Notes under the pieces: generated by a model | Seen by the model: the letters and a program-made list of their open reading frames with translations, nothing else | Database searches by the model: none | What the model was told of the DNA's origin: nothing | Part shown: positions 38,178 through 58,647 of the stretch, piece after piece | Layout of the letters: the number at the start of each line of letters is the position of its first letter | How positions within the stretch are numbered: position 1 is the first letter of the stretch | Position numbers and translations under genes: made by a program | Source: Acidobacteriota bacterium | Lineage (GTDB): Bacteria; Acidobacteriota; UBA6911; RPQK01; JAJDTT01 | NCBI GenBank assembly: GCA_028874215.1 | Contig: JAPPLF010000016.1 | Location: forward strand, 1 to 64,000 | Length of the DNA: 64,000 nucleotides | Reading direction: 5' to 3'

Positions 38178-40028
38178 TCATTTGATGAGAACGAGTTTCA
38201 ACCGGCGGTGGGCCGGACTCCAACCTTCAATGAAGGGTCCCACTGCGATCACACCGCCGGGGTATTTGCGGCCGAAGTAGTCGAAACCCATCCGTTCGTC
38301 GCGGGTCACCTTCAGGACCTCGTCTTTCCGAGCCGACCAGGACAGGATCCCGTCCTCGGGTCCGATGGCAATGTCGAGGTTTGCCGTTCGGCTGTGGGAG
38401 TCCAGGCCGGTCGACTGCCATTCGGCCAAGCTGAAGTTCTGTCCTGCCCCCGAGACGATGTTGTAATCCGACACGTTCTCCGTATTGGCGTATTCGAACG
38501 GCACCGGGCACTCGGCGACGACATTGTTGATCACGCGGTTGTGCTTGGAGACGCCTACCCGGTCCCGGGTTTTGGTCTTCGTCATGCGGATGCCGTACGG
38601 CGCGCAGTTCACCAGCAGGTTGTGGGTCACCAGGAGCCGGTCGGAGTCGTGCAGGTAGAAACCGGAGCCCTGGACGTTGTAGACGACATTGTGATCGATC
38701 AGGTTGATGACGTTGGAGGCCTCGAAGAAGAGCCCCCCGGCGTAACTGGAGATGTCGTGAATCAGGTTCCGGGTGACCCGCGTGTTCCGGTTCGCGAAAT
38801 CGATCCAGATTCCCGACGAGGCATAGCAATCGTGAACGTGATTCCGGGTGACGACGGAATCCAGCATGATCAGGAGCTTGATGCCCGCCACCTCCCAGTA
38901 GCGCTCGACGTCCTGCCAACCGCAGTCGTGGACGTGATTGTCGGAAACGAGGCTGCGGGAGACGACGGTTCCTTGAATGCCGCCGGTGCCGCAGTCGTAC
39001 ACGTGGTTGCGGCGCACCAGGTGGTCTCCCGTCGTCTTCGCCAGCTCGTTCCGGTTCCCCGCGTTGGGGCCCTCTTCGGTGAACGCGCCGATCTCGATGC
39101 CCACCGCGTTGACGTGCCGGACGGTGTTTTCCTCGATGATCCAATGGCGGCCGCCCCAGGTCGTGATGGCGCCGTTTCCGGAGCGGATGAATCCGTTGCC
39201 GGCATGCTCGAACGTGAGCCCCTTGATCCGGATGTATTCCATCCCCTTCACCAGGGGGTTGATCAGGAACTGCCGTGTGGTCACCTCGATCTGCCGGGTG
39301 TTGGGGTCCCTGCGGTCGAACGGGTTGAGGTGCAGTTGCCGGTTCTCGCCGTCGATCCAGAACGTGCCGGCGACCCGGTGCAACTCCTCGATCCGGGCCA
39401 ACTGGGTCAGGCGCCGCCCGTCTTGAAACACCATGGCTCGCGGCAGGGTGTGGGGGATCCGTCCCCGCTCCGCCCGGGCCCAGCGCATGACCGCGAAGTC
39501 GGCGTCTGAAGTGTTGACGGCGGCAAACGGGTGGTTGTCGCCGAAGAACTCGGGGGGCAGATCCGCCTTCCAGACGTTGGCCGACTTGGACCGTCCCGAG
39601 TTGCTCCACACGGCCCTCAGCACCTCGGACCCGCTGATGACGGCCTCCGCGCCCGGCGCCGCCTCGAAGCTGACCATGCCGTCCGGGCCCGTGCCCCCCC
39701 GCCGCGGCCGGACCCACTCACGGTAGAGGCCCGATTTGATCAAGACCTTTTCTGCGGGCCGGACCACGTCCGCCGCACGTTGGATCGTCAGAAAAGGGGC
39801 CTCTTCGGTGCCAGGGTTGTCGTCCGCCGCCACGGGGTGCCGCTGGTCCACGTAGTAGACCCGCCGGTACTCGGTCACATCTTCCCAGGTCTGGAACTCC
39901 GTCCCGTCGGGAAGCAGGACCGGTGGATCCGGCACACCCGAAGTTCCGGCCGTCAGGATCCCGGCTCCCGCCGAAAACAAGCCCACGAGCGCGAAAACCG
40001 CAATCGGCGTCCTGAGACGTGTGATCAT
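38178..40028 (-). CDS. Secreted right-handed beta-helix protein
   Basis: 616 residues with a signal peptide (IAVFALVGLFSAGAGILTAG). After YYVDQRHPVAADDNPGTEEAPF and FLTIQRAADVV it carries many parallel beta-helix coils with Asn/His ladders, such as NHVHDCGW, RNHVHDCYASSGIW, RNLIHDISSYAGG and HNLLVNCAPYG, as in pectate-lyase-like or GH141-type enzymes. Polysaccharide lyase or hydrolase is likely; substrate unknown. AGGAGG lies 7 nt before the ATG. Last gene of the long minus-strand block. Confidence 0.8.
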   Translation of the reverse strand: MITRLRTPIAVFALVGLFSAGAGILTAGTSGVPDPPVLLPDGTEFQTWEDVTEYRRVYYVDQRHPVAADDNPGTEEAPFLTIQRAADVVRPAEKVLIKSGLYREWVRPRRGGTGPDGMVSFEAAPGAEAVISGSEVLRAVWSNSGRSKSANVWKADLPPEFFGDNHPFAAVNTSDADFAVMRWARAERGRIPHTLPRAMVFQDGRRLTQLARIEELHRVAGTFWIDGENRQLHLNPFDRRDPNTRQIEVTTRQFLINPLVKGMEYIRIKGLTFEHAGNGFIRSGNGAITTWGGRHWIIEENTVRHVNAVGIEIGAFTEEGPNAGNRNELAKTTGDHLVRRNHVYDCGTGGIQGTVVSRSLVSDNHVHDCGWQDVERYWEVAGIKLLIMLDSVVTRNHVHDCYASSGIWIDFANRNTRVTRNLIHDISSYAGGLFFEASNVINLIDHNVVYNVQGSGFYLHDSDRLLVTHNLLVNCAPYGIRMTKTKTRDRVGVSKHNRVINNVVAECPVPFEYANTENVSDYNIVSGAGQNFSLAEWQSTGLDSHSRTANLDIAIGPEDGILSWSARKDEVLKVTRDERMGFDYFGRKYPGGVIAVGPFIEGWSPAHRRLKLVLIK

Positions 40029-40074
40029 GGGTGATCCTCCTGGGATCTCGAGGCCATGGCTTTTCCCGCTCCTT

Positions 40075-41205
40075 TCATCGAACCTTCAGTTCCTCGATCA
40101 TATCGTGAATTCGGTCCAGAGCAGGGCTCAGGTAACCGTGCGGCAGACCGAAACTCACGCGCAGGAAGTGATCGATGCCAAAGTGATCTCCCGGCATGAT
40201 CAGGACACTCTTTTCCAAGGCGAGCCGCCGGGCCAGCCGGGTCGAGTTGATCTCCAAATGGTAACGAATGAAGGCGATCGCCCCGGCGTCCGGCGGCCTC
40301 AGGCTGAAGGTGCCCGGATGCCGGTCCATCCAGCTTCGGAGTATGGGATAACCTCGACGGATGTAGGAACGGGTGCGGCGCACCAGCCAGGGGCGGACTT
40401 CGGGAGACAGGGCCAGGGCCGCCAGCCGGTTGGAAAGCATGGTCGCGCTGATGGTCGTGTATTCATGCCGTGCCCAGAATTCGTCCACGATGCCGCCCGG
40501 CGCCACGACCCAGCCGATCCTCAGGCCCGGAAGCCCGTAGGCCTTGCTCAGGCTCCCCGTTGCCAGGACCTTGTCGTACCTTCCATAGAAGGTCGGCGTC
40601 TCCTGGTCGGTGACGCGCTCGGCCCCGGCATAGACTTCATCGGCCAGGATCCAGCTTCCGGACCGGTCAGCGATCTCGATGACGGCTTCCATTTCGGATT
40701 CGGTCAGAACGCGCCCGGTCGGGTTGTTGGGATTGCATACCGCGATCAGCCGGGTGTTGGCCGTCGCCATTGACTCCAGTTCGGCCAGATCCGGCGCCCA
40801 ACCCGTTTCCTCCCGCAGATGAAAGGTCTTCAATGCAAGGCCGTGGTTCTTCGCCAGTCCCCAGATCTGCATGTAGTTCGGGAGCATGACGACGATCTCG
40901 TCGCCGGGGTCCAGAAGGGTTCTGATCACGAGGTAGTTGGCCTCGATGGCACCGACCGTCACCAGGACGTTCTCAGGCGTTGCGCCCGGATAGAGCCGCG
41001 CAATGTTCCGCCGAAGCTCAGGTATTCCGTTGGTGTGGGGATAGTTCAGATCGGTGTCCAGCAAGCCCTCAAGAGTGCCGTTCTCCCGATCGACGAGCTC
41101 CCGGAGCAGGACCGGATGGGCGCCGCTCTCTGAGAGATTGAATTTCACCTCCTTCTCGAACCGGGACATCATCCGTTCCATTTGGAATGGCTGAAACACC
41201 CGCAT
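40075..41205 (-). CDS. Class I/II PLP aminotransferase
   Basis: 376 residues, fold type I. NPNNPTGRVL (near residue 164) and DEVYAG bind PLP; the Schiff-base lysine is in TGSLSKAYGLPGLRIGW near 228; the distal Arg lies in FLRVSFGLPHG. The acceptor is unknown. ATG 41205 has a perfect AGGAGGT 7 nt upstream; the longer frame is not credible. It lies 46 bp before the beta-helix gene. A cytosolic aminotransferase among secreted hydrolases suggests that the locus feeds on an amine or amino acid. Confidence 0.9.
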   Translation of the reverse strand: MRVFQPFQMERMMSRFEKEVKFNLSESGAHPVLLRELVDRENGTLEGLLDTDLNYPHTNGIPELRRNIARLYPGATPENVLVTVGAIEANYLVIRTLLDPGDEIVVMLPNYMQIWGLAKNHGLALKTFHLREETGWAPDLAELESMATANTRLIAVCNPNNPTGRVLTESEMEAVIEIADRSGSWILADEVYAGAERVTDQETPTFYGRYDKVLATGSLSKAYGLPGLRIGWVVAPGGIVDEFWARHEYTTISATMLSNRLAALALSPEVRPWLVRRTRSYIRRGYPILRSWMDRHPGTFSLRPPDAGAIAFIRYHLEINSTRLARRLALEKSVLIMPGDHFGIDHFLRVSFGLPHGYLSPALDRIHDMIEELKVR

Positions 41206-41303
41206 GGTTGCTACCTCCTCTGTTCGCCGAAAGGCGCCGTCACGTCTCACGCAAATCCTGTGGCCGGCACGGGGAGAGGCATCTGACCTCCGTTGAGCAG
41301 ACG

Positions 41304-42557
41304 TCAATCGCCGGCGTCGCGGCGGCCGGGAAGATCCAGGGCCAGCGACCGGAAGCCCCGGACGCGGTGAAACGTGATGTGCGTACTCTTGGCCTGCGAA
41401 TGCCGGCCTCCCAGCGCCGTCCGCACCGCCAGCAGCAGGTCATCCCCTTCCGGCAGCAGAGACGCGTAGTTGTAAGCTTCGCGAGGCTTCCTGGTCATGG
41501 CCACGCAGCCGGCCTGGAACCAGTTGTGGGCGTCGACACTGTACATCAGGATCAGAATCCGCCGATCGTCGCCCCCCGGGGCGCCGCCCAGCGAATCGAC
41601 GGGGATGTTGCCCGCCATCCAATACAACCCGGAAGGTTCGTCGCGGATGATGTGAAATTTGTTCTGCGCCCCAGGCATCGGGAAGAACTGCCCGAAGGTG
41701 TGTCTCAAGGTCGTCCCGTCATCCGCGAGGTCGGTGACCGCTGCCAGTCCGGCGGTGGATTGATGCGTCAGACCTTGAGCGGCTCCGCCGGGAACGCGGA
41801 GCCGATGGAAACCTCGGATCTCACCCTTCACCTCCACCAGGTTTGATTCGAGCCAGTGGTCCGGGCGTCGTCCGGCAGCCGGCACGCGGGTCAAGAGCGG
41901 CGGGGTGCCCGGGTAGTCCAGCCGGTCGGACATTCGCCAGGCGGACCTGTCCAGCAGATTCCGTGAGAGGTCCCCGGCAATGACCACGCACCCCTGGTAA
42001 TTTCGCAGATTCGGCGTGCCGTCGGCGTCCTGGTGCAGGTTGAAGGACCGGTAGAGGCGCCGGTCCTTGATCAGGACCCCGGTGGGCGCGTTCCAGTAGC
42101 TTCCCTCGAACAACGTGACCGGCTCCGTCCAGGATCGTCCTTCGTTGTTGGAGCGCAGGATCACGATGTTCCGGCGGATGGCCAGATTTCCAAGAAGATA
42201 CAACTTGGATTCATGCACGAACGGCTGCGCGGAGTGCAGATCGAGCGGAGGAAGCTGCCGCCAGGTCCGGCCTCCGTCGTCACTGACGGCCAGCCGAAAC
42301 CGGCGAGGCACCTGGGCGTTCGCGTCAATCAGGGTGTGTTCGAAGGTCACCAAGAGCCGGCCGCTGGGAAGCTTCACCAGCGCCGGTTCGTAGACGAACA
42401 GCCTCCCCGGATCGGGCGACTCGGCGACCACGGTTTTTTCGGTGTGGAGCATGGGGCCGGGCCTGCCGCCTGCGGCCTGCTGTGTCCAAGACGATGCCCC
42501 GAGCGTCATCATCCACCATGGCATGGCGAGAACAAGAAACTTGGTCTTGACGGTCAC
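41304..42557 (-). CDS. Exported sialidase-like BNR protein
   Basis: 417 residues with a signal region (FLVLAMPWWMMTLGASS). Two Asp-boxes are clear, SDDGGRTW near residue 92 and SNNEGRSW near 137, along with YEPALVKLPSGRLLVTFEH. It is a sialidase-superfamily beta-propeller, but FRIP is absent, so true sialidase activity is doubtful. The start is GTG 42557 with AAGGA 8 nt upstream. It lies 54 bp downstream of the symporter. Confidence 0.75.
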   Translation of the reverse strand: MTVKTKFLVLAMPWWMMTLGASSWTQQAAGGRPGPMLHTEKTVVAESPDPGRLFVYEPALVKLPSGRLLVTFEHTLIDANAQVPRRFRLAVSDDGGRTWRQLPPLDLHSAQPFVHESKLYLLGNLAIRRNIVILRSNNEGRSWTEPVTLFEGSYWNAPTGVLIKDRRLYRSFNLHQDADGTPNLRNYQGCVVIAGDLSRNLLDRSAWRMSDRLDYPGTPPLLTRVPAAGRRPDHWLESNLVEVKGEIRGFHRLRVPGGAAQGLTHQSTAGLAAVTDLADDGTTLRHTFGQFFPMPGAQNKFHIIRDEPSGLYWMAGNIPVDSLGGAPGGDDRRILILMYSVDAHNWFQAGCVAMTRKPREAYNYASLLPEGDDLLLAVRTALGGRHSQAKSTHITFHRVRGFRSLALDLPGRRDAGD

Positions 42558-42611
42558 TGGCGAATTCCTTGTTTGAGGTTGCTGAATCCGGACCCGGACC
42601 TGGTCCGCCGG

Positions 42612-44057
42612 TTACGGCTCTGACGAGTCCGGTCGGATCGGACGCGCATCGCGCGTCTCCCACCAGGTTCCGAGCGCCAGCAGCGAGACAGTGATGGGCA
42701 CCCCGATCAGAATGGGATCGATGGTCCAGACGACCACGATGGTGCCCACCTCCTGGACGCTTCCCAGGACCTGGTAGAGGATGATCACGCTGGCTCCGGT
42801 CAGCATGGAGGTGAGAACGGTTCTGGGAGCCCGCCGGACTCGGGGAAACAGGACCATCGCCGCCACCACGGGCGCCACCGAAGCTCCCATGATCCGTCCG
42901 CCCAGCCAGAACAGTTCGATCATCAAGGGAAAAACGTAGTAAATGGCGGCGGCCAGCGCGCCGACCAGAATGACGTTCAGGCGGTAGAGCCAGAGCTGAG
43001 CCCTGGGACTGGCGTTGGGATTGAGGAACCGGTTGTAGATGTCGATGGTGAAGTTGGAGGCGATGGTGTTGATGGTGGAGTCGAGAGTGGACATGCTGGC
43101 GGCCAGGATCCCCACGATGATTATGCTGCCCAATTGCCCCCCGGCCACGCCGAAGGTCATTTGGAGGAATACGTCGTCGCCGGAGATGTCCGCTCCGTAG
43201 AGGGCCCGCCCCAAGACGCCGATCAGCGGCGGAACCATGTACCAGATCGTCGAGATGATCCCGCCGTAGAGGAATCCCTTGTGGGCGGCGGCCGTGCTGG
43301 AGGCTGCCAACCCCCGCTGAATCACGCTCTGATAGCCGAAGGTGATGGATATGCCGATGATGACCCAGGCGATGACCTGGCTGGGACCGCCGGTGCCGAA
43401 GCTGCCGAGAAAGTCCGGGTCCTCGATGGACCGCAGTACGGAAAAACCTCCGGCGCCCAGAAAACCGAAAACCACGAGCGCGACGGATCCGATGGAGACG
43501 ATGAAGAACTGGATCGCGTCCGTCACCAGGATGGCCCACATCCCACCCAGGAAGACGTAGACCAGGGTCAAGGCCCCGACCAGCGCCAGGGACTGCAGCA
43601 GCGAGATCTGCAGGATGCTGGAAGTGACCACGGCCAGGGAACCCATGACTCCCGCGGTGGCGCCCAAGTCCCGAAGGATGATGAGGGAAAGGGAAACGAG
43701 GCGGTGACGGGGGCCGTAGAAGCGCTCGAAGAGCTGGGGAACGGTGATGATTCGGGTGGCCCGAAGGCGCGGGACCACGTAGTAGGACATCCAGATGGTG
43801 GCGAGGACGAATGAACCGCCGGTCCAGTAGGCGCTCAAGCCGAAGTCCTTGGCCACTCCCGAGATCCCGATCAGGGTGGTCCCGTTGATCCAGGTTGCGG
43901 CCACCGAGAAGGCGATCAACCAGGGTCCGGAGCTGCGGCCGGCGACGGCCATGTCCTCCATCCGGCCGACCCGCGTCCGGGCGGCCCAGATGCCGATCCC
44001 GAACATCAGGAGCAGGTAGGTTGCGATCAGCCACCAGGAGGGCTGGAACTCTTCCAT
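42612..44057 (-). CDS. SSS-family sodium/solute symporter
   Basis: 481 residues, about thirteen transmembrane helices. The TM1 pattern LLLMFGIGIWAARTRVGRME, the DMAVAGRSSGPWLIAFS segment and the TM8 sodium-site region ASMSTLDSTINTIASNFTIDI are typical of the solute:sodium symporter family. The substrate may be a sugar, amino acid, carboxylate or urea-like compound. GAGG lies 7 nt before the ATG. A 60-residue membrane protein is encoded 3 bp upstream, as in several SSS operons with small accessory subunits. Confidence 0.92.
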   Translation of the reverse strand: MEEFQPSWWLIATYLLLMFGIGIWAARTRVGRMEDMAVAGRSSGPWLIAFSVAATWINGTTLIGISGVAKDFGLSAYWTGGSFVLATIWMSYYVVPRLRATRIITVPQLFERFYGPRHRLVSLSLIILRDLGATAGVMGSLAVVTSSILQISLLQSLALVGALTLVYVFLGGMWAILVTDAIQFFIVSIGSVALVVFGFLGAGGFSVLRSIEDPDFLGSFGTGGPSQVIAWVIIGISITFGYQSVIQRGLAASSTAAAHKGFLYGGIISTIWYMVPPLIGVLGRALYGADISGDDVFLQMTFGVAGGQLGSIIIVGILAASMSTLDSTINTIASNFTIDIYNRFLNPNASPRAQLWLYRLNVILVGALAAAIYYVFPLMIELFWLGGRIMGASVAPVVAAMVLFPRVRRAPRTVLTSMLTGASVIILYQVLGSVQEVGTIVVVWTIDPILIGVPITVSLLALGTWWETRDARPIRPDSSEP

Positions 44058-44060
44058 CGC

Positions 44061-44243
44061 TTATCCTCGCAGGAGAACTCCCCAGATCCAGACGTAGGCG
44101 AAACCGGCCAGGACCAGCAGGGCCAGGCTCAACCAGGGGTTCAGCCGCGGCAACTCGACCCGGTCCATCAGGTCGAGCTCATGGCTGGCGTACCGATAGG
44201 ATTCTCCCCTGTCGTCCCGGGTTTCGGTCTTATCGGGTTCCAT
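44061..44243 (-). CDS. Small single-span membrane protein beside SSS symporter
   Basis: 60 residues: an acidic N-terminus (EPDKTETRDDRGESYRYASH) and one hydrophobic helix (LSLALLVLAGFAYVWIWGVLL). A purine-rich AAGGGGG precedes the ATG. Its stop lies 3 bp before the symporter start, so it is almost certainly cotranslated. I infer a symporter accessory subunit; no family name is assigned. Confidence 0.7.
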   Translation of the reverse strand: MEPDKTETRDDRGESYRYASHELDLMDRVELPRLNPWLSLALLVLAGFAYVWIWGVLLRG

Positions 44244-44270
44244 CGTTCCCCCTTGGAAATTTCGTTCCCT

Positions 44271-45440
44271 TCAACCCCGGTTTCCGCCTCCCCAGGCCGA
44301 GGAGAAGGTCTCCCCTTCCAGGAAGCGGGACGGCCGAAACTGGTGAATGTCGATCTCGGGTTCGTCACCCGCGATGATGTCCGCCAGCGCCTCACCCAGC
44401 GGCGGGCCGATCTTGAAGCCATGGCCGCTGCCTCCGAAGAAGGCGTAGTAGCCCTCGATGTGGGGCTCCGGTCCCACGACCGGGTGCCAGTCGTCCATGA
44501 TCGTATAGATGGACGCGTATCCGTGGTGGTATTCCATCTCCCGAAGCACGGGAATCCGCTTGAACAGGCAGGCCTCGATCCGCCCGCGCTGATCCGCGTC
44601 CAGGTCCTCGTTGTACGAATCGATGTTCAGCGGCTCCACCTCTTTGGGGTAGCCGAGTCCGGCCAGCATCGTGTTGTCCGCGTGAGGCTTGTAGTAGGCG
44701 CGTTGCGGGGGATCGGAAATGACGGGAAGAGGGCCGAAATCACCCGGCTGAGTCACGATCAGGTCCGTCTCCCGGCTCCAGCGGACAGAGTAGTTGAGGC
44801 CGGCCCAAAGGCCCACCTGCCGCCCCCAGGGCCCGGCTGCGTTCACCACCACGGGGGTGTCGATGGTTCCCTGCTCCGTCTCCACGGAGCGGACGCGGCC
44901 GCCGTCGAGGTTGATGCCGGTGGCCGCCACTCCCACGTGCGCCGTCAGACCCCACTGATGGGCTCCGTTCACCAAGCTCTCGGTCGTCCGGATCGGATCC
45001 GCGCAGCCGGAGCGAGGCTCGAAGATGGCGCGGACGATCCCCTCCAGGTTCAGCGGCGGCGCGAGTTCCCGGATGTCTTCCCGCGACAGTTCCCGGACCT
45101 CGACGCCGTGGGTGCTCTCCATCTCCAGTATCTGGTCACCGGCCATCTTCCATCCCTCATCCAAGAGGAGGAGAAATCCGATCTGCCGAAACCCGGAATC
45201 GCCTCCCAGCGCCTCCCGGTCGTTCTCGAACATCTGCACCGCGCGCCACGCCAGTTTCACGGTGATGGGGTTGGAGTAGTAGGTCCGGACCACGGCGGCC
45301 GACCGGCCCGTGCTCACGCCGGCCAGACGGCCCTTCTCAAGCAAGACGACCTTTTTGAATCCCTTTCGGGCCAGAAAATGGGCCACGCTTGCGCCCGCGA
45401 TTCCCCCTCCGATCACTACCGCATCCGCTGTCTTATGCAT
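44271..45440 (-). CDS. FAD-dependent amine/amino-acid oxidase (DAO family)
   Basis: 389 residues. The N-terminal FAD site is VVIGGGIAGASVAHFLARKG with LLEKG at the second strand; STGRSAAVVRTYYSNP and the C-terminal FFGGSGHGFKIGPPLGEAL are typical of the sarcosine-oxidase/glycine-oxidase branch. It probably oxidises a secondary or primary amine. It is paralogous to the gene at 58687. AAGGAGG lies 8 nt before the ATG. Its neighbours (symporter, aminotransferase) fit a role in catabolism of an imported amine. Confidence 0.87.
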   Translation of the reverse strand: MHKTADAVVIGGGIAGASVAHFLARKGFKKVVLLEKGRLAGVSTGRSAAVVRTYYSNPITVKLAWRAVQMFENDREALGGDSGFRQIGFLLLLDEGWKMAGDQILEMESTHGVEVRELSREDIRELAPPLNLEGIVRAIFEPRSGCADPIRTTESLVNGAHQWGLTAHVGVAATGINLDGGRVRSVETEQGTIDTPVVVNAAGPWGRQVGLWAGLNYSVRWSRETDLIVTQPGDFGPLPVISDPPQRAYYKPHADNTMLAGLGYPKEVEPLNIDSYNEDLDADQRGRIEACLFKRIPVLREMEYHHGYASIYTIMDDWHPVVGPEPHIEGYYAFFGGSGHGFKIGPPLGEALADIIAGDEPEIDIHQFRPSRFLEGETFSSAWGGGNRG

Positions 45441-45493
45441 CTCGCCGACCTCCTTGACTCGGGAAGAATATAGCTCCTCTCGGAATCGATTTC

Positions 45494-47374: not shown

Positions 47375-47419
47375 GGAACACCTCTCCCTCTGGCTGCGGA
47401 ACACAGGATCTGCGGCACG

Positions 47420-49522: not shown

Positions 49523-49594
49523 GATGACTCTCCTTCTGTTGCCCGATTCTCTTGGCATCGGTCGTTCCAGCCGGACGCCGGACGAGGCCGCGTT

Positions 49595-51616
49595 TCAGTT
49601 CAATTGTCGGGGCACGCTGACTCTCCAACTCTTGTGGAAGTGACGCTTCCCGTTCATCGTCACCTCCACCTGGCTCACGAAATGGAACGCCTCCAGATCG
49701 CTGATCAGAAATTCATTGGCTTCCACGGTCATTCCCGACCCCGCGGGCGGGACCTGGTAAACGTAACGGGCCTTGAGAACCGTTTCCGCGGGATCCCGTC
49801 TCGACACCGTATAGGTGGAATGCGCCAGTCCTGGCGCCGGACCCGTCTCGGAGACTCTCTCCAGAGTGGCCGTCACCGATTCGTTCACCAGGTCGTGCCT
49901 GATCTCGTGCCGGGTGCTGCTGCTGATGTCCGCCATTGTCGCGGGCGGCCTCGGAGAAGGCCTGAATTCCGGTCGGCCTATGGATGGAGCCTGAGCAGGC
50001 GTCACCGGCAAGACGACATGAGAAGGATGCCGCCCGTCCCGGTGGATGGCGTTGACGGCGGGCTTGGCAGTGGGCCAAGCATTCTGAAAATCCGAACTGG
50101 CAATGCTGACCCGGATGCGGTGGCCTTTCTCGAACAGGTAGGAGACATATTTCAGGTCGATTTCCAGCTCGTAGATCTGTCCGGGATTCATGGGTTCCGG
50201 ATTCGAGTGGGAATCGCGGTGCGTGGCGAGCAATCCGCCGTCGGTCAGCCATTTCGAGGTGCCGTCGGGCGCCACATCCGTGAGCTTCACGTGGAAGTAG
50301 GCCGCGTCGGCCGTGGAGGCGGCATAAAGCACGGCCTTCGGATTCCCCGTGACCTCCAGGTCCTGCTCCAGCGGTGAAGTGGTGTAGGTCATGGAGCAGG
50401 CGTCGTCGAGCCGCTGGTCCACCGGCATGGCCCAGGGCATGATTCCCCCGCCCCAGTAGATCCCCGCGCTGATCCCGACCGACGGGTCGTACGCGTACTC
50501 GTCGGACGCGCTCTCGCCGGGGGGTCTCATTCGATTCAGCCGTCCGTCAGGTTGGAGGTAAAATGGAGTGTCCTGATTCCGGGCCGGCGGCCACTCGTTT
50601 TCATGTCTCCAGAATCCGGCGTCCTCCAGGTACATATGAGCCGCGGGCCGCTTGTAGCGGCGAATGAAGAGAGTCACGGCGGGCTCTTCCATGACGCCGG
50701 TGTCTTCCCCTTTGAGCCACTGGTCGAACCACTTGAGCATCTCGTGCCTGAAATCGATCCTGGGACCGGGCAGGGCTTCTTCCGGCCAGTAGTGTCCCCA
50801 AGGACCCAACAGGATCTTCTTGGGGACTTCCAGCTTGGAGAAGGCCCGCAGGATGGGGGTGGGATAAGGGTCGGCCCAACCGCACCAGAACATGACGGGA
50901 ACCTTGATCCGGCTGTAGTCCGGCTGCAGTGAGCGATCACGCCAGTAGGGCCCCTGGAGCAGATTCGAAATGAAGCCGATCCCCCAGGGAACGTTCTTCT
51001 CCAGCCGCTCTTCCCACAGTCGGCTCCACTCGGGCCCAACGATATCTGCGTCGGGCGGCGCCGCGTTGAAGGCGGTCATCATGGGGGCGAAGCTGTCGAA
51101 CATGTAGGGACGGATGCTGCCGCCCGGATTCGTCCAATCCAGGTAGACGTCGTCGTTGGAGGATCCGATCACCAGGGTCTTCAGCGCGGGAGGATTCTGC
51201 ACCCCCACCTGCCACTGAACCACACCGCCGTAGGACATGCCCCACATCCCGACGTTGCCGCTGCACCAGGGTTGGGCGGCGATCCATTCCACCATGTCGC
51301 AGGCGTCCCGGCGCTCCTCGTCGGAATAGACGTCCTGCGTCGTCCCTCCGGAATTTCCGGTGCCGCGGACATCGAAGTAGATGACGGCGTAGCCCCGTTG
51401 GGCAAAGTAGGGAGGCCCGTCCCAGCGGTGGTTGTAGGTCGATTCTGAGCTCGTATCTTTGACCTGCCTCAGCCAACGATAGGGGTTGTAGGCCATGATG
51501 GCCGGAAACCTGCCCTCCGCTTTCGGCCGAACGACGACGGCCGCCAGCTCGACTCCGTCTCTCATCGGGACCCGGACCCGACGGTCCAGTTGCACATCGT
51601 ACTCAGACCGGGACAT
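49595..51616 (-). CDS. CocE/NonD-family serine hydrolase 3, no signal peptide
   Basis: 673 residues, closely related to hydrolase 2 along its full length (GMWGMSYGGVVQWQ nucleophile, FWCGWADPYP, LLGPWGHYWP, C-terminal KRHFHKSWRVSVPRQLN). The start is firmly set by GGAGG 7 nt before ATG 51616, and the protein begins SRSEYDVQLDRRVRVPMRDG with no signal peptide. It should be cytosolic, or exported by an unknown route, while its sisters are secreted. First of the three in transcription order. Confidence 0.88.
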   Translation of the reverse strand: MSRSEYDVQLDRRVRVPMRDGVELAAVVVRPKAEGRFPAIMAYNPYRWLRQVKDTSSESTYNHRWDGPPYFAQRGYAVIYFDVRGTGNSGGTTQDVYSDEERRDACDMVEWIAAQPWCSGNVGMWGMSYGGVVQWQVGVQNPPALKTLVIGSSNDDVYLDWTNPGGSIRPYMFDSFAPMMTAFNAAPPDADIVGPEWSRLWEERLEKNVPWGIGFISNLLQGPYWRDRSLQPDYSRIKVPVMFWCGWADPYPTPILRAFSKLEVPKKILLGPWGHYWPEEALPGPRIDFRHEMLKWFDQWLKGEDTGVMEEPAVTLFIRRYKRPAAHMYLEDAGFWRHENEWPPARNQDTPFYLQPDGRLNRMRPPGESASDEYAYDPSVGISAGIYWGGGIMPWAMPVDQRLDDACSMTYTTSPLEQDLEVTGNPKAVLYAASTADAAYFHVKLTDVAPDGTSKWLTDGGLLATHRDSHSNPEPMNPGQIYELEIDLKYVSYLFEKGHRIRVSIASSDFQNAWPTAKPAVNAIHRDGRHPSHVVLPVTPAQAPSIGRPEFRPSPRPPATMADISSSTRHEIRHDLVNESVTATLERVSETGPAPGLAHSTYTVSRRDPAETVLKARYVYQVPPAGSGMTVEANEFLISDLEAFHFVSQVEVTMNGKRHFHKSWRVSVPRQLN

Positions 51617-51781
51617 GGGAAATCCTCCGGTCAGCCGATTTCGTCTCTTGGATACTCCTGCCCGAAATCTCGGAATGGTTCGGACGGTAAGTCCTCGATT
51701 CCTTCTGAAGGAGCGACGATTGAAAGTGAAGATCTGGAGGAATCGGGAACCGGAGACACGGGAGGTCTCGATTCGAAGAGG

Positions 51782-52867
51782 TCACTCTTCCACCAGGACA
51801 CGCATTCCCCGGGTGCTGGTCCGCCCGCCGGGCTCGATTTCCGGCCGGAATGAAGGCCGATAGGCGTCCGGGCTGTTGAGCCAACTTCCTCCCCGCATGC
51901 TGCGGACTCCCTCGGCCTCCGGTCCTCGTGGATCGGTTCGGGCCGGGTCTTCCCCCGCCCAGTCCAGGGTGTATTCCCAGACGTTGCCGATGGCGTCGAA
52001 GAGGCCTCGCGGGTTGGGATAGAACTTTCCCACGGGAGCCGTGCCCTCGTATCCGTCGTCCCTTCCCTCGGGGATGAGACTGCGCATTTCGGTCCCCGTC
52101 AGGAACAGGTCGGCGTCGGAAACGTCCGCCATGGCGGCATCCGCCACGTTGGCCCAGTAGCCGCTGGGAAGCCGGGGATCCCGCACGTAGTCGGCCGGCC
52201 TCTTGCCCCAGTAGTAGCGGGTGACGGTCAGGGCCCGCTGGCCGTATTCCAGCTCACCCTCGGTTGGTAGACGAACCGTTCGTCCGGTCTCGGCGCTCAG
52301 CCAGCGGCAGAACTCGGCGGCGTCGAACCAACTGATGCAGGTCACGGGATGGTCCGAGTCTTGGGGAAAACCGGGATTTCGCCAGGAGGCGCCGGATTTG
52401 GGACCCCAGCTCCCTCCGCCCATGGTGTAGCAGCCTTTCCCCAGTTCCCGCCAGGATCGGCGACCCGTTTCGGCGTCCGTTTCGTAGCCGCTGTCCTCCA
52501 CGAAGCGCTGGAACTGCCCGACGGTGACCTCGTACTTCCCGAGATGGAAGGCTTTGGTAATGGTCACCTGGCGGGCGCGCAGATCATGGGGAGCGAAGAG
52601 ACCGATCAAGGCACGAGACCAGTCGGTCTCCCCCATCATGAACTCGCCGGGCGGGATCCGGACCAGTTCCAGTTTTACCCCCGATCCGAGATCCAGCGTG
52701 ACCTCCTCATGCCCGGCAGCCGGGCGCGCCGACGCCCGGTCGAGACCGCTAGAGCCAAGCAGGACGGAGAGGACGATCAGCGCCACGGAACGGCGAGTTT
52801 TAATCGCCCGTGCATGGTGCCGCATGTGCAGGCGAATGCCAATGGGGCGCGTTTCGCACTCGTTCAT
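51782..52867 (-). CDS. SUMF1/FGE-like protein without catalytic cysteines
   Basis: 361 residues. After a membrane or signal segment (SVALIVLSVLLGSSGL) comes the formylglycine-generating-enzyme fold: RIPPGEFMMGETD, YEVTVGQFQRFVEDSGY, PVTCISWFDAAEFCRWLS, RLPTEGELEYGQRA, GLFDAIGNVWEYTLDW and MRGGSWLNSPDAYRPSFRPE. Genuine FGE has two cysteines in the last block; here none, so it is not a sulfatase activator. It may bind substrate or act as a hydroxylase-like or structural member. ATG 52867 has GGAG 5 nt upstream. Confidence 0.82.
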   Translation of the reverse strand: MNECETRPIGIRLHMRHHARAIKTRRSVALIVLSVLLGSSGLDRASARPAAGHEEVTLDLGSGVKLELVRIPPGEFMMGETDWSRALIGLFAPHDLRARQVTITKAFHLGKYEVTVGQFQRFVEDSGYETDAETGRRSWRELGKGCYTMGGGSWGPKSGASWRNPGFPQDSDHPVTCISWFDAAEFCRWLSAETGRTVRLPTEGELEYGQRALTVTRYYWGKRPADYVRDPRLPSGYWANVADAAMADVSDADLFLTGTEMRSLIPEGRDDGYEGTAPVGKFYPNPRGLFDAIGNVWEYTLDWAGEDPARTDPRGPEAEGVRSMRGGSWLNSPDAYRPSFRPEIEPGGRTSTRGMRVLVEE

Positions 52868-52883
52868 GCTCACTCCGCAATTC

Positions 52884-52939
52884 GGCGGTTGGAAACCGCC
52901 GCTCCCGCTCCTACCGGCGGTAGGAAAACCGCCGCTCCT
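52884..52939. repeat. Pair of short palindromic (REP-like) repeats
   Basis: GGCGGTTGGAAACCGCC (52884-52900) and GGCGGT-AGGAAA-ACCGCC (52916-52933) are each followed by GCTCC, giving two direct copies 32 bp apart of a hairpin-forming unit. They fill the gap after the TonB receptor stop. Related units occur at 62125 and 63517. Confidence 0.6.
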
Positions 52940-55900
52940 TAGAACGTGTACTTCAGCGAGAACTGGATTTCCCGCGCCTCGAACGCACCGCCGATCACGC
53001 CGAAGGCCGGGGTGCCGAAGGTATTGGCCGGCTGCAGGAAGTTGGCCCGGTTGAGGACGTTGAACACCTCCCCTCGAAATTCGAGCACATGGTCTTCGGT
53101 GATCGGGAACCTGCGATGCAGCCCGAAGTCGACGTTGGCGAACCCCGGACCGCGGGTCACGTTTCGGCCCAGATTCCCATAAGTGAACGGCTGTGGATTC
53201 TGGAAGGCCCTGATGTTGAAGAACTGCTGCACGGTCTTGGGGCCGGCGTTGGGGTCCTGACCCGACACCCAATCCGGAGTGTCCGTTCCGAGTCCGGTGT
53301 TGCTGTTGTCGTAGGGCAGTCCGATGTGGAACGGCTGGCCGCCCTCCAGCGTCACGATCCCTTGAATCCGCCAGTTCCGGAGCAACATTCCGCCGAGGCC
53401 CCCCATTCCCTTGCCGAAGGGAAGCTGATAGACCCAGTTCGCTGCGAAGCGGTGCGGAACGTCATATTGACAGGGTCCCCAATCCTCTTCGAAGTTGCGC
53501 GGGTCCCGTGTCCCCCGGGGAGAACCGTCCCCGTTGACCTGGACACTCCCGGTATCCATGCACCTGGACCAGACATAGGAGACAAGGAAGCCCAGGCCGC
53601 CGGAGAATCGCTGCTCCGCCCTCAACTCCAGCCCGTTGTAGCTCGACCAGCCCTGGTTGTCGGTCCGGGTGTCGTTCACGATGGAAGGGATAATTCGGCG
53701 CGAGGCAACGGATCCCGGTCCCGGTCTCAGCGGTGAGTTGGCATTGAAAACGGTGAGGAGGTTGCTCCCCCGGTTGCCGATATAGGAGGCGGAAATGGCG
53801 GTATTCCCGATCTGCCGCTGCAGGGTCAGGTTCCAGACCTGGTTGTAGGGGTCCGTCCATCCGGGATCGTTGGAGTAGAAGTTCAAGCTGGGAAGCCCAA
53901 CCCCGGGAAACGGGGCGCTGAAGGACAACTGGGGTGTCCTGGTGTCCGAGATGAAGGTCTCCGGACTGACGTAGGGAGGCGACATGGCGGCGAAGAACGA
54001 GAAGACCATGTTGGGGGACATGTAGAAAAGCCCGTAGCCGCCGCGAAGAACGGTCTGGTCGTTGATCCGGTATGCAAAACCCAGCCGGGGGGCGAAGTTG
54101 TTCTTGTCCGCCTTGTAGACTCCCCGCGGGATGTCCTCTCCGGCGTGCGCCAGAACCAGCTCGGGTGCACTGGAGTAATCCGGCTGGGCGTAGCGCCCGT
54201 GTTTCTCATAGGGGGGCTGGAACAGCTCGTACCGCACCCCCAGGTTCAAGGTCAGATCAGGCGACACCTTCCAGTCGTCGTTGATGTAGATGCCGAAGTC
54301 CTTCTTGCGGAAGTTGCGGAAACCGTCATTGACCGTGCAACACCGGGAGGTCCGGTTGGGTACGCCCAGAATGTAGTCCGCCACGGGGTTCCCCGTCCCC
54401 GGCTGAGTCCCGGTTTCGGTCAACTGCGACGTGAAAATTCCGTTGAAGGTGAACAAGCCGTGGGCAAACAGGGCATGGCCGCCGTTCATCTGGTACCAGT
54501 CGACGGAGGCGCCCGTGGAAATGTTGTGGTTGCCGGTGATGTAGGAGAAGTTCTCCCTCACCGCGAACTGGTTGTCGGAGCGATTGTTGGGCGCATTGGC
54601 GATGGCCCCGGTGCCGCCCAGACCGGCGATGTTGATGTTGGGGTTGCCCAGAAAACGGGGACTCAATCCGTGGATCCCCAACTCCTCGTTGACCGCCACT
54701 TCCTGTTCCGAGTCCTCCAGGACCTGCGTGTGCCGGTTGAAGCCGACCCGGAGGTCGTTCACCGCACTGGCTCCGAACGTGTGGGTATGACCCAGCACGG
54801 CATTCTGAGCCGGGGACTTCCAGACGGTGGTGAAATTGGGGAGCGAAGCGAAGACGAAGGGCCAAAGGCGGTCGTACTTCACCAGCGTATAGCGGCCGAA
54901 GATGGTGTCTTCCTCTCCGATCCTCTGGTCGATCCGAATGTTCAACTGGTCGCTGATGACCTCCTGGATTGACGAATCGACGAGATTACTGACCACACCG
55001 GGACGATTCGCCGTGGGAAACAACCGCGTGAAGGCCTTGACCGAGGCCGGATGCCACATGTTCTCGGGGATCACCTTGTTCGCAAAAGGCGCGCGCAGAC
55101 CGGTGTCGGGGTCGACGTCGAAGGGGTTGAAGATGGGATTGCCCTCGCTGAAGTCTCCCCGCCGTTGCAGATCGGTGGGTACGCTGACGGCGCGGGTCAC
55201 TTCCTTGTCCGACCGGATCGCCTCGTAGGTGACGAAGAAAAAGGTCTGGTCTTCCACGATCGGTCCGCCGATGGCCACACCCATATTCTGCTGCGAGAAG
55301 GGCTCCTTCTCCGCGGCGAAGAAGGTGCGGGCGTCAAAGGCGTCGTTCCGGAAAAAGCCCCAGGCGGAACCGTGGTAATCGTTCACCCCTGCGCGGGAAG
55401 CGATATTGACCACACCTCCCGAAGCCCGTCCGAACGCGGCCGAGTAGTTCCCGGCCTGGAACTTGAACTCCTGGATGGCGTCGACGGTCATGCGGAATCC
55501 GACTCGGGTATCGACCGCGTCCTTCATGTCGATCCCGTCCAGCAGGAAGACCGTGCCTTCAGCCGGCGCCCCGTGCACCGAGAAGTTGCCGCCGAAAATG
55601 CTGCTGTGAAAGCTGATCCCCCCTCCGGGGAGCTTGTGGGTGGAGACGGCTCCGGGCTGCAATTCCACCAACTGGATGAAATTGCGGCCGTTCAAAGGGA
55701 GGTTGACGATCGTCTCATGATCGACCACGTCTCCGATTTCGCCCGACTCGGTCTGCAGGGGCGGGGGTGTCCCCAGGACCTCCACGACCTCCTGGATCTC
55801 ACTCGGCGAGAGAGTGATGTCCACGGCGACGGTTTCATTGACCCGGACCACGATGTCCCGCCGGAGCACGGGTTGAAATCCCGCCAACTCCGCCCGAATC

Positions 55901-56133
55901 GAGTAGTCGCCCGGCTGCAGGAAAACGAACTTGTAGGCCCCCGTGTCGCCGGTGACGGCGCCAAAGGTCCGGGCCGTTCCCACGTTGGTCAGGAGGACGT
56001 CGACGCCCGGGATGATGCCGCCCGTCTCGTCCGTGACCCGGCCGCTGATCCCGCCCGTGGTGATCTGGGCCGACAGGGGCGCTGCCAGCATGGCAACGCT
56101 CAGGAAAAGGATTGAAATCTGGATTCTTCGCAT
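52939..56133 (-). CDS. Oar-like TonB-dependent outer-membrane receptor
   Basis: 1064 residues. A signal peptide (SILFLSVAMLAAPLSA) precedes a carboxypeptidase-regulatory domain at about residues 25-105 (ISGRVTDETGGIIPGVDVLL), a TonB plug (NLPLNGRNFIQLVELQPG, FLLDGIDMKDAVDTR, QAGNYSAAFGRASGGVVNI) and a long beta-barrel ending in aromatic Phe (EIQFSLKYTF). This type is greatly expanded in Acidobacteriota. It imports large or complexed substrates with energy from TonB. AAGGAG lies 8 nt before the ATG. Confidence 0.95.
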   Translation of the reverse strand: MRRIQISILFLSVAMLAAPLSAQITTGGISGRVTDETGGIIPGVDVLLTNVGTARTFGAVTGDTGAYKFVFLQPGDYSIRAELAGFQPVLRRDIVVRVNETVAVDITLSPSEIQEVVEVLGTPPPLQTESGEIGDVVDHETIVNLPLNGRNFIQLVELQPGAVSTHKLPGGGISFHSSIFGGNFSVHGAPAEGTVFLLDGIDMKDAVDTRVGFRMTVDAIQEFKFQAGNYSAAFGRASGGVVNIASRAGVNDYHGSAWGFFRNDAFDARTFFAAEKEPFSQQNMGVAIGGPIVEDQTFFFVTYEAIRSDKEVTRAVSVPTDLQRRGDFSEGNPIFNPFDVDPDTGLRAPFANKVIPENMWHPASVKAFTRLFPTANRPGVVSNLVDSSIQEVISDQLNIRIDQRIGEEDTIFGRYTLVKYDRLWPFVFASLPNFTTVWKSPAQNAVLGHTHTFGASAVNDLRVGFNRHTQVLEDSEQEVAVNEELGIHGLSPRFLGNPNINIAGLGGTGAIANAPNNRSDNQFAVRENFSYITGNHNISTGASVDWYQMNGGHALFAHGLFTFNGIFTSQLTETGTQPGTGNPVADYILGVPNRTSRCCTVNDGFRNFRKKDFGIYINDDWKVSPDLTLNLGVRYELFQPPYEKHGRYAQPDYSSAPELVLAHAGEDIPRGVYKADKNNFAPRLGFAYRINDQTVLRGGYGLFYMSPNMVFSFFAAMSPPYVSPETFISDTRTPQLSFSAPFPGVGLPSLNFYSNDPGWTDPYNQVWNLTLQRQIGNTAISASYIGNRGSNLLTVFNANSPLRPGPGSVASRRIIPSIVNDTRTDNQGWSSYNGLELRAEQRFSGGLGFLVSYVWSRCMDTGSVQVNGDGSPRGTRDPRNFEEDWGPCQYDVPHRFAANWVYQLPFGKGMGGLGGMLLRNWRIQGIVTLEGGQPFHIGLPYDNSNTGLGTDTPDWVSGQDPNAGPKTVQQFFNIRAFQNPQPFTYGNLGRNVTRGPGFANVDFGLHRRFPITEDHVLEFRGEVFNVLNRANFLQPANTFGTPAFGVIGGAFEAREIQFSLKYTF

Positions 56134-56186
56134 CGGTTACGCTCCTTCGGTCAATTAAGTTCCCTGCGGTTCGCAGTTCGAATGTC

Positions 56187-57344
56187 TCACTTCACGATGG
56201 TCTTCAAGAGCCGGAAGACCCAATCCCGGTCGCCCTGATACTGGGATCCGAAATAGGTGGATCCGACGACTTTACGGGCTACGTAGTTGGTCCGGATGGT
56301 GGCCACCACCAGATCGTACTCGGGGACCACCGAGATCCGGGAGACGGCCTGCCAGTTGATGTTGCCGCCCCGCGCTTCCTGCACGCCCTGTCCCGGCAAC
56401 CACCAGTTCAGGCTGTAGTCCTCGCCCCCGTGGCCGGCATGCCGGCGGCTTTGCGGTTTGCGCGTCTGCTCCACCCACTCCTTGCTGACTAGTTGCTGGT
56501 CCCGCCAGCGCCCGTTGCGCAGGAAGAGATAGCCGAAGCGGGCGGCGTCGTCCGAATTGATGACCACCCAGCCCGGTCCGGCCCGGACGGCGTGTCCGCC
56601 GATCTCCCACGGCGGATCCAGGTAGCGTCCGTAGCCCGGCCAGAAGGGGTACATGAGGTTTTCCTGAATCACACGCGCGGGCATCCAGTCCCAACGCCCG
56701 GCGGGCACTTGGAGATGCCGGAAGATCTTCTCGTCCAGCACGTCCTTGAGATCCTTGCCCCAAAGCGCCGTCAAGGCCTGGGCGAACCGCCACATCCCCC
56801 CGTCGCTGTAGATGTATTCGCCCCCCGGCGCCCGGTGGGCATAGTTGTAGGTGGAATCCCCCATCTCGCCGTCGGACCGGCTCAGGTCAATGTCCGGAAA
56901 GCCCGACACCATGTTGGCGAAATGCCTCCAGGTGATTTTTCGATGGTGGCCTTCGTTGAGGTATTTGTAAGAATGGGACAGCTCTCCCTCGCCCGTCCAG
57001 GTCTTCCAGACCAGGTCGTCCAACTCGACCAGGCCGGCATCGACGGCCAGGCCCAGGCAGGTCGCGTTAAACGTCTTGCCCATGGACGCGGTCTGGACGG
57101 CAGTCCTCTGGTTGCCCCAGGTGGCCACCACGTATCCGTGGCGGACAATGGTCCCCCCGATCCCGACCCGCGGCAGGATCCTCCTCAGGGCATCCTCGTC
57201 GAAGCCCACGTCCGCAGGACGCCTGGTTTCCCACTCCTTGCCCGGAAAACGATCGAGTGCGTCGGCCGGAACGTCAGTCGCTTGGGCGGTCCCGGCGGAA
57301 ATCCCCAGGGCAAGGATCGTGCAGGCCGCCAGGAAACGATTTAT
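56187..57344 (-). CDS. Beta-lactamase-fold serine hydrolase, ATA start
   Basis: 385 residues. The catalytic SxxK is in TASMGKTFNA, with the YSDGG equivalent of the YxN motif; overall a class C/EstB-type hydrolase. The first ordinary start codon is GTG 57209 inside the domain, but the frame continues upstream with a good signal peptide (FLAACTILALGISAGTAQA) that begins at an ATA codon (57344). GAGGAG lies exactly 6 nt before this ATA. No ATG, GTG or TTG exists between. Esterase, peptidase or amidase activity is possible. First enzyme gene before the TonB receptor in transcription order. Confidence 0.85.
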   Translation of the reverse strand: MNRFLAACTILALGISAGTAQATDVPADALDRFPGKEWETRRPADVGFDEDALRRILPRVGIGGTIVRHGYVVATWGNQRTAVQTASMGKTFNATCLGLAVDAGLVELDDLVWKTWTGEGELSHSYKYLNEGHHRKITWRHFANMVSGFPDIDLSRSDGEMGDSTYNYAHRAPGGEYIYSDGGMWRFAQALTALWGKDLKDVLDEKIFRHLQVPAGRWDWMPARVIQENLMYPFWPGYGRYLDPPWEIGGHAVRAGPGWVVINSDDAARFGYLFLRNGRWRDQQLVSKEWVEQTRKPQSRRHAGHGGEDYSLNWWLPGQGVQEARGGNINWQAVSRISVVPEYDLVVATIRTNYVARKVVGSTYFGSQYQGDRDWVFRLLKTIVK

Positions 57345-57375
57345 CGCTCTCTCCTCAAGCTGAAGGTCGGAAACG

Positions 57376-57399
57376 AACGCTCATTGCGTGAGCGTTTTT
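57376..57399. promoter_or_regulatory. Perfect palindrome, operator or terminator
   Basis: AACGCTCA-TTGCG-TGAGCGTT is an 8-bp perfect inverted repeat, followed on the plus strand by TTTTT. It lies between the carbonic anhydrase stop (minus strand) and the hydrolase start, 32 bp upstream of its ATA. As a terminator it would have to serve the minus-strand carbonic anhydrase, where the U-run is weak. As a repressor operator it is well placed. Confidence 0.5.
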
Positions 57400-57481
57400 C
57401 CAATGAGGCACACCATATCGGTAGCCCGGAATGCAAGTCAAGAGGCAATGGGCCTCTACGGGGAGGACAGCGCCGCGGCGG

Positions 57482-58288
57482 TCATTCGCGCAGCAGAACG
57501 CGGTCGCCGAGGGGCTGCACAGGGCGAAAGTTGTGTGGATGAATGGCGCCGAATGCGGCAATTTGCGTCTTCGACATCGATAGCGGCTCGGTCAGGACGA
57601 CCCAGTCGACACCTTCGGTGCAGGGTGGAGTGGTGAGGGAACCCCGGTACCTCCATGTCGTTCGGACGGCAGGCAGGAGCAATGCCAAATCGAGTTCGCC
57701 CGGCACCATTTGCGACTCGGACTTTTCGGGTGGAAGATGCTTCCAGACTGGAGCCAGGGCCTCACTCGCCGGTCCTTCCTTGAACAGAATTCCAAGCACC
57801 GTAAGCGACCCGAAATCACTTCGATGCACCAGGTGCATCTCCAGCGCCAGTCGACTGCCGTCAAATGTATGTTCGCTGGGATGGTGGAAGTGAAACTGCA
57901 CCAAGGCGGAGCGTACTCCGTTGAGGACGATGCCGCTGCCGGAGTTCGGGTTCACCTGGATCGTATGCCCGGTGTTCTCGATGGCGAATCGGGTCCTGCG
58001 GTAGTCGAACTCGATCGGCGCCAGCTCGGCGGACTGGCCCGCCGTCAGATCGATGGGCGACTGTTCGTCGCCCGAGGCGCAGGAGATAAACGCGGAATCG
58101 AGCGCCCCCCAGACTTCCGGGCCGTTGTGCGGCCCGTAGCCCCAACACGGAACGGCAGGATGCTGGTTTCGTCCGGGTCCCATGGATATCGACTCTGCCT
58201 CACTTACGTCCATTACCCGCACAGCGGACTGTCCGGGTGGAAACTTGTTGATAATAGGAGTATCTGGCCGTTCGCGGGCGCAGGACAC
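57482..58288 (-). CDS. Alpha-class carbonic anhydrase
   Basis: Hydrates CO2 to bicarbonate. Up to 268 residues. Zinc ligands are in QFHFHHPSEHT (two His) and EMHLVH (third His). Also seen are SPIDL and SLTTPPCTEGVDW; Cys in FISCASGD and PPCTEG likely form the usual disulfide. Alpha enzymes are normally periplasmic, yet no signal peptide is present. The start is uncertain: GTG 58288, ATG 58213 or ATG 58183, none with a good ribosome site. Confidence 0.88.
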   Translation of the reverse strand: MSCARERPDTPIINKFPPGQSAVRVMDVSEAESISMGPGRNQHPAVPCWGYGPHNGPEVWGALDSAFISCASGDEQSPIDLTAGQSAELAPIEFDYRRTRFAIENTGHTIQVNPNSGSGIVLNGVRSALVQFHFHHPSEHTFDGSRLALEMHLVHRSDFGSLTVLGILFKEGPASEALAPVWKHLPPEKSESQMVPGELDLALLLPAVRTTWRYRGSLTTPPCTEGVDWVVLTEPLSMSKTQIAAFGAIHPHNFRPVQPLGDRVLLRE

Positions 58289-58335
58289 GATGACCGGTGC
58301 CGACCGCCCTCTTTCACAAGCATCAGAACCAGGAG

Positions 58336-58647
58336 TCAGTCCTGTTTCGGTGACGGCGCGGCGCGCCCGGGTTGGCCCGCCGCGGTAGCGGAGATTTTAG
58401 TCTCGGTGAAGAGCCGGCGGCCGGTATGCCCTTGATTCCGGTGGCGCCACCAACGGAGTCCCGCAAACGCTGCCAAGCCTCCCACGACTCCCAGAATCAG
58501 GAAACCGCGGACAGGCGGGACTCCTGCCCAGAAAATGAACATGACGCCGAAGACGAAGATGAGCCCGGCGGCGCCTCTGACCGGAATCTTCTCGATCCGG
58601 ATCCCGGGATGGGGTTTCAATGGCTTGGGAGGTGGCGACTGTGGCAT
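58336..58647 (-). CDS. Small two-helix membrane protein
   Basis: 103 residues: a proline-rich N-terminus (PQSPPPKPLKPHPG), two hydrophobic helices (GAAGLIFVFGVMFIFWAGV and FLILGVVGGLAAFAGL) and a basic tail. Family unknown. No Shine-Dalgarno precedes its ATG. It starts 39 bp from the divergent oxidase; the gap holds CCTCC-GATT-GGAGG, whose right arm is the oxidase ribosome site. Confidence 0.6.
   Translation of the reverse strand: MPQSPPPKPLKPHPGIRIEKIPVRGAAGLIFVFGVMFIFWAGVPPVRGFLILGVVGGLAAFAGLRWWRHRNQGHTGRRLFTETKISATAAGQPGRAAPSPKQD

Follow-up and report, generated by a model that had tools for sequence, protein, structure and literature searches.

A candidate gene set for the breakdown of a small cyclic amide

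A run of minus-strand genes at positions 38178-58647 of contig JAPPLF010000016.1 from an Acidobacteriota bacterium, of which the first 64,000 nucleotides (the window) were analyzed, had been taken in a first-pass annotation for a single 20-kb system degrading an acylated or peptidic amine. Comparison with other genomes makes it probable that a set of genes for the catabolism of a small cyclic amide, either a lactam or a hydantoin, is present here. This set is patchily distributed, and with it marine, largely sponge-associated members of two phyla would use such a compound as food. The core of this set would comprise a sodium:solute symporter of the SSS family with a 60-amino-acid partner, the two-subunit enzyme HydA/HydB and a sarcosine-oxidase-type flavin adenine dinucleotide (FAD) enzyme of the DAO family, while CocE hydrolases are its regular companions. 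The visible 20-kb run turned out not to be the functional unit, since HydA and HydB, which are encoded just outside it (34299-38161, plus strand) and had been left out of the reported region, belong to the recurring set. Of the function first proposed, the catabolism of an amine-containing small molecule was retained, but a lactam or hydantoin is likelier than an acylated or peptidic amine because HydAB, the additional partner that is always present, is an ATP-dependent hydrolase of cyclic amides.

The symporter and the FAD oxidase occur jointly in distant bacteria

With the SSS protein as query, a scan of 84,980 species genomes returned 16 relatives (58-98% identity). They belong to Acidobacteriota metagenome-assembled genomes (MAGs) of the window genus, to two MAGs from Bryobacterales and to ten from Gemmatimonadota, several of the latter being named Palauibacter. 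In all ten Gemmatimonadota loci, the genes for HydA, a small transmembrane protein, the SSS symporter, HydB and the DAO-family oxidase were contiguous in this order on one strand, and a divergent CocE gene was located upstream wherever the sequence extends that far. The Bryobacterales genomes carried a run of the small protein, SSS, HydA and HydB genes that is flanked on either side by CocE genes; their HydA and HydB proteins were 69-75% identical to the window pair. Their DAO gene was found on other contigs, where it adjoined a second type of HydAB and, where the stretch was longer, CocE as well.

Of 395 Gemmatimonadota genomes, the same 11 encoded both SSS and DAO, either protein at an identity of 58% or more, and neither was present in the other 384; where positions were compared, the two genes were about 1.8 kb apart. 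Likewise, DAO was present in two of 200 genomes of the order Bryobacterales, and these are the same two that have SSS. A phylum-wide search of 396 Acidobacteriota genomes found SSS in the window genus only, the two Bryobacterales hosts having come from the genome-contig scan and not from this search. Altogether, SSS and DAO occurred together in 18 of 18 genomes from the Gemmatimonadota, Bryobacterales and the window genus. Recurrence of the receptor, CocE, DAO and SSS genes in distant strains, which the first-pass annotation had named as a test of one system, was borne out for SSS and DAO with CocE nearby, but not for the receptor. The scattering of genes in relatives, named there as evidence to the contrary, was observed in part, as the set is split over contigs in Bryobacterales. 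The SSS and DAO trees split the two Acidobacteriota groups, with moderate support for the key DAO fork (87/95). The trees and the very patchy distribution fit a putative transfer between phyla, to which loss is the alternative.

HydA and HydB resemble ATP-dependent lactam and hydantoin hydrolases

The hydA gene (34299-36389, plus strand; PF01968/PF05378) specifies the alpha subunit of an ATP-dependent lactamase or hydantoinase, and hydB (36233-38161, plus strand; PF02538, E 3e-177), which probably starts at about 36425, the metal-binding, ring-opening beta subunit. In the PDB, HydA matched the N-methylhydantoinase 7hk5 (E 1.5e-145) and the caprolactamase-family chain 6yra_A (E 8e-123). The three ATP motifs of the alpha subunits of this family, DxGGTxTD, DxGGT and GxxPGP (PMC8453981), are all present in HydA as DIGGTFTD, DMGGT and GADPGP. 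In HydB, the Asp-His-Asp-His metal ligands and a Tyr all align with 6yra_B (CapB positions 41, 99, 102, 124 and 136); the roles of these residues, including that of the proposed catalytic Tyr, were assigned in CapB (PMC8453981). By family, the window pair is therefore predicted to be a complete two-subunit ATP-dependent lactam/hydantoin hydrolase. Its motifs and metal site are those of the caprolactamase CapAB from Pseudomonas jessenii (PMC8453981), but with 584.8 and 310.8 bits the pair remained under the NCBIfam caprolactamase equivalog cut-off of 1000, and the likeness is at the level of the family.

The FAD oxidase is of the sarcosine-oxidase type

The oxidase gene (44271-45440, minus strand) encodes an FAD-dependent DAO-family protein (PF01266, E 3e-56). 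Its predicted model (mean pLDDT 81.5) gave VIA Z values of 44 to 1y56_B, 43 to dimethylglycine dehydrogenase (DMGDH) and 39 to monomeric sarcosine oxidase, and the nearest fold was that of archaeal L-proline dehydrogenase. The PF01266 match and the fold of the predicted model place the enzyme in the sarcosine oxidase/DMGDH-type family. Residues R52, K266 and K343 (in GHGFK) were invariant across 17 orthologues. Monomeric sarcosine oxidase has a covalent-flavin Cys and a carboxylate-binding Arg/Lys; judged by motif, Ser310 would stand in the place of this Cys. A second DAO-family oxidase gene, 27% identical to the first, is located just past the run (58687-59925, plus strand) and is kept in the relative G001. 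The relative G002 has a second DAO of the window-DAO family (61%; L065:9832-12689), which adjoins a sulfatase gene; in the 20 kb read around it, neither this SSS type nor HydAB was found.

The symporter is accompanied by a small membrane protein without a Pfam family

The SSS gene (42612-44057, minus strand; PF00474, E 3e-34) is preceded by the gene for the 60-amino-acid partner with a single transmembrane segment (44061-44243, minus strand). Homologues of the partner adjoin SSS in all three lineages and adjoin paralogous SSS genes as well, further examples beside SSS paralogues being located at L052:3563-3727 and L055:2077-2241. SSS symporters with small membrane subunits are known from the ActP/YjcH, PanF/YhdT and DUF4212 types, in which, as here, a large SSS protein adjoins a short transmembrane protein. 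In contrast to these types, the single-transmembrane partners of 54-68 amino acids fit no family in a Pfam search, and they may represent a new type of SSS small subunit.

CocE hydrolases are regular companions of the core genes

As first annotated, three CocE/S15 proteins with a PepX_C domain are encoded on the minus strand of the run. The first (45494-47404; PF02129 and PF08530) and the third (49595-51616) passed the cut-off of the CocE/NonD model TIGR00976 (459.6 and 339.2 bits, respectively; cut-off 66.3), and the second (47420-49558) matched PF02129 and PF08530. Inspection by eye indicated signal-peptide-like N termini for the first two and no obvious signal peptide for the third. A homologue of the first (56%) is encoded near the Bryobacterales SSS, and homologues of the third (58-62%) are divergent from it. 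The Gemmatimonadota CocE proteins were 60-70% identical to copies on contig C83 of the window genome, and the Bryobacterales CocE near DAO was 67% identical to another C83 copy.

The window genome (5.7 Mb) has 20 CocE-type (PepX_C) genes and seven HydB genes, and clusters of the SSS/HydB/CocE type reappear on three of its contigs. C97 carries CocE, an SSS (47%), a 54-amino-acid partner and HydB (51%); C90 carries an SSS (45%), its partner, an enolase-superfamily enzyme, two CocE genes and a receptor; and C83 carries seven CocE genes, a beta-lactamase-fold gene, a receptor and HydB-HydA. CocE genes thus adjoin the core in three lineages and recur in paralogous loci. With so many CocE genes in one genome, common hydrolase genes could conceivably have come to lie together by chance, the genome being large and rich in hydrolases. 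We consider this very improbable: outside the window, CocE was found within 10 kb of three of the seven SSS/HydB loci of the genome versus about 0.3 expected (binomial about 0.003, with a background of 4.4% estimated by hand), and the presence of SSS and DAO was identical over 395 genomes. FG-GAP/UnbV-ASPIC proteins, some with TPR proteins, repeatedly adjoin CocE/SSS/Hyd loci in the window genus and Bryobacterales (31113-33985 in the window; L052:5756-7453, L055:6862-8316, L068:1876-3576 and L040:20108-21403).

Proposed route and candidate substrates

Beyond the gene content, every step of the following route is our inference. Outside the cytoplasm, secreted CocE enzymes would cleave a precursor, either an ester or an amide, and so free the cyclic amide, which SSS with its partner would, as their family suggests, import with sodium. 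Judging from the complete active sites, HydA would then phosphorylate the ring amide and HydB would hydrolyze the ring at its metal site; the product would be an amino acid, which may be N-alkylated. The FAD enzyme, by its fold and family, would finally oxidize the newly exposed amine. Lactam hydrolysis yields an amino acid, and amino acids are the natural substrates of the oxidase family to which DAO belongs. A comparable pairing in one cluster of a HydAB-type enzyme with an amino-acid oxidase is described for N-methylpyrrolidone in Alicycliphilus BQ1, where nmpABCDEF includes an N-methylhydantoin amidohydrolase (nmpAB) and an amino-acid oxidase (nmpC); the available part of that description, which concerns a different phylum, mentions neither an SSS with a small partner nor CocE (PMC6987047). 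HydAB and an amino-acid oxidase were adjacent, as in nmp, in the ten Gemmatimonadota loci. A succinate-semialdehyde dehydrogenase gene was not among the core genes scanned, the scan covering only part of the flanking open reading frames (ORFs). Literature searches for a published cluster of CocE, hydantoinase and symporter genes gave nothing relevant.

Candidate substrates would be an N-methyl lactam or creatinine-derived 1-methylhydantoin, and a simple or N-methyl lactam is slightly preferred because it requires no extra enzyme. In the hydantoin version of the cyclic-amide route, SSS would import creatinine or methylhydantoin, HydAB would produce N-carbamoylsarcosine, an amidase encoded elsewhere would release sarcosine, and DAO would convert this to glycine. 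Consistent with this, N-methylhydantoinase is the closest solved relative of HydA, DAO belongs to the sarcosine-oxidase family, and several host MAGs bear sponge or coral names. A route for host creatinine via N-methylhydantoinase was reported in sponge microbiomes (PMC6742649), and the HydAB type, the sarcosine-oxidase-type enzyme and the sponge habitat of many hosts are in common with it. However, the core loci lack a carbamoylsarcosine amidase; the isochorismatase family, that of the known amidase, was detected in 14 of the 18 genomes and in none of the other four, although these are MAGs. Moreover, DAO missed the cut-offs of the curated soxA/soxB models for sarcosine oxidase (TIGR01373, 88 versus 529; TIGR01377, 70 versus 480) and likewise the NCBIfam N-methyltryptophan-oxidase cut-off, and one host, the ERR599156 MAG, is of the Tara Oceans type rather than a sponge bin. 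This specific substrate is accordingly considered unlikely.

The same genes could be read as a system for peptide and imino-acid use, in which CocE/S15 enzymes and a prolidase-like amidohydrolase of the Gemmatimonadota would release proline- or pyroglutamyl-type units, HydAB would act as a 5-oxoprolinase and DAO would oxidize proline-like imino acids. The closeness of DAO to the proline dehydrogenase fold agrees with this idea, as do the X-Pro dipeptidyl-peptidase domains common to CocE proteins, the Xaa-Pro dipeptidase model that fits the amidohydrolase best and the gamma-glutamyltranspeptidase within the G002 locus. Yet X-Pro peptidase models fit the CocE proteins much less well than the CocE/NonD model does, the amidohydrolase is below the dipeptidase cut-off, and the transpeptidase was found in one genome only, so that we regard peptide use as doubtful.

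Several observations also speak against the cyclic-amide set as such. The HydAB genes of the window genus converge with those for SSS and DAO and lie outside their transcription unit. The Gemmatimonadota HydAB is nearer to the second HydAB type, represented in the window genome on C83 and C97, than to the window pair (about 50%), and for this reason the HydAB types may differ in substrate. The CocE subfamilies vary between lineages. Furthermore, the 12 Gemmatimonadota host genomes are related, so that the counts are non-independent and may represent perhaps three or four separate lineages. Going beyond the probable cyclic-amide set, we tentatively suggest a horizontally spread pathway of marine, largely sponge- or coral-associated Acidobacteriota and Gemmatimonadota, which would import an N-substituted cyclic amide made by a host or by microbes through an undescribed SSS with a small subunit and would degrade it by ATP-dependent ring opening and then FAD oxidation. 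If the set is as proposed, the genes of a nitrogen-compound diet common to unrelated uncultured marine symbionts would be named, the SSS transporters would gain a further type of small subunit, and HydAB with DAO on lactams and hydantoins would offer a clear enzyme test.

The 20-kb run combines the core with lineage-level neighbors

ORF and Pfam scans confirmed 14 genes at 38178-58647, every one of them on the minus strand as annotated. All genes named in the first-pass annotation were present, including the TonB receptor, the beta-lactamase-fold protein, the FAD oxidase, SSS with its small partner, the pyridoxal phosphate (PLP) aminotransferase and two secreted proteins, but an alpha-carbonic anhydrase had been overlooked. 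The gaps, given as 3 to about 165 bp, measured -4 to 272 bp, the 272-bp gap flanking the carbonic anhydrase gene. No SusD-family protein was detected among these genes by Pfam scans, as a SusC/SusD polysaccharide utilization locus would require.

The uninterrupted run is specific to this strain when compared with G001 and G002. In both relatives, an opposite-strand gene breaks it between the BNR and aminotransferase genes (41205-41304 in the window), with 2.2 kb lying between the two in G001 and 4.7 kb in G002, where this stretch also holds the gamma-glutamyltranspeptidase gene; the segment was probably lost in the window strain. The original proposal, in which the run is one operon and includes an outer-membrane receptor of its own for the acylated or peptidic amine, draws on the single direction, the mostly short gaps and the conservation of the receptor, FGE-like, BNR, aminotransferase and beta-helix genes within the window genus. 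These genes and the beta-lactamase-fold gene were, however, not found in the Gemmatimonadota and Bryobacterales core loci, the sole trace being a weak 31% receptor match at the edge of L041. Together with the broken run in the relatives and the carbonic anhydrase gene that is missing in G001, this makes the single-operon proposal quite unlikely, and the whole run was ruled out as the unit by the interruptions in relatives and the core-only distant loci. The receptor, beta-lactamase-fold, FGE-like, BNR, beta-helix, aminotransferase and carbonic anhydrase genes are lineage- or strain-level neighbors outside the core.

All of these neighbors are encoded on the minus strand. The secreted right-handed beta-helix protein (38178-40028; PF13229) is kept in G001 and G002 only. 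It is followed by the class I/II aminotransferase (40075-41205; PF00155), whose ORF is open to 41307; a 4-bp overlap with the BNR gene exists only from the first TTG, and the relatives L036 and L037 indicate an ATG start at about 41205. The secreted BNR/sialidase-fold-like protein (41304-42557), kept in the genus, matched PF13088 below its cut-off. The secreted FGE/SUMF1-like protein (51782-52885, start approximate; PF03781, E 1.5e-49) carries none of the cysteines of the formylglycine-generating enzyme (FGE) in its RGGSWLNSPDAYRP segment, as had been stated. It is encoded next to the Oar-type TonB-dependent receptor (52939-56133; PF25183, 752 bits, and PF13620). Coding of the beta-lactamase-fold serine hydrolase (56187-57209; PF00144) probably begins upstream of 57209: its G001 orthologue has 386 amino acids and a signal-like start. 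At 57209-57340, a signal-like peptide is encoded without a usual start codon, where G001 has GTG. The run ends with a small membrane protein (58336-58647; no Pfam match), which is preceded by the eukaryotic-type alpha-carbonic anhydrase (57482-58288; PF00194, E 1e-40). Caprolactamase requires bicarbonate (PMC8453981), and a role of the anhydrase as bicarbonate supplier to HydAB was considered but dropped as a part of the core, because the gene is absent from the syntenic place in G001. Synteny picks up again on both sides of this place, and the carbonic anhydrase gene looks like a strain-level gain.

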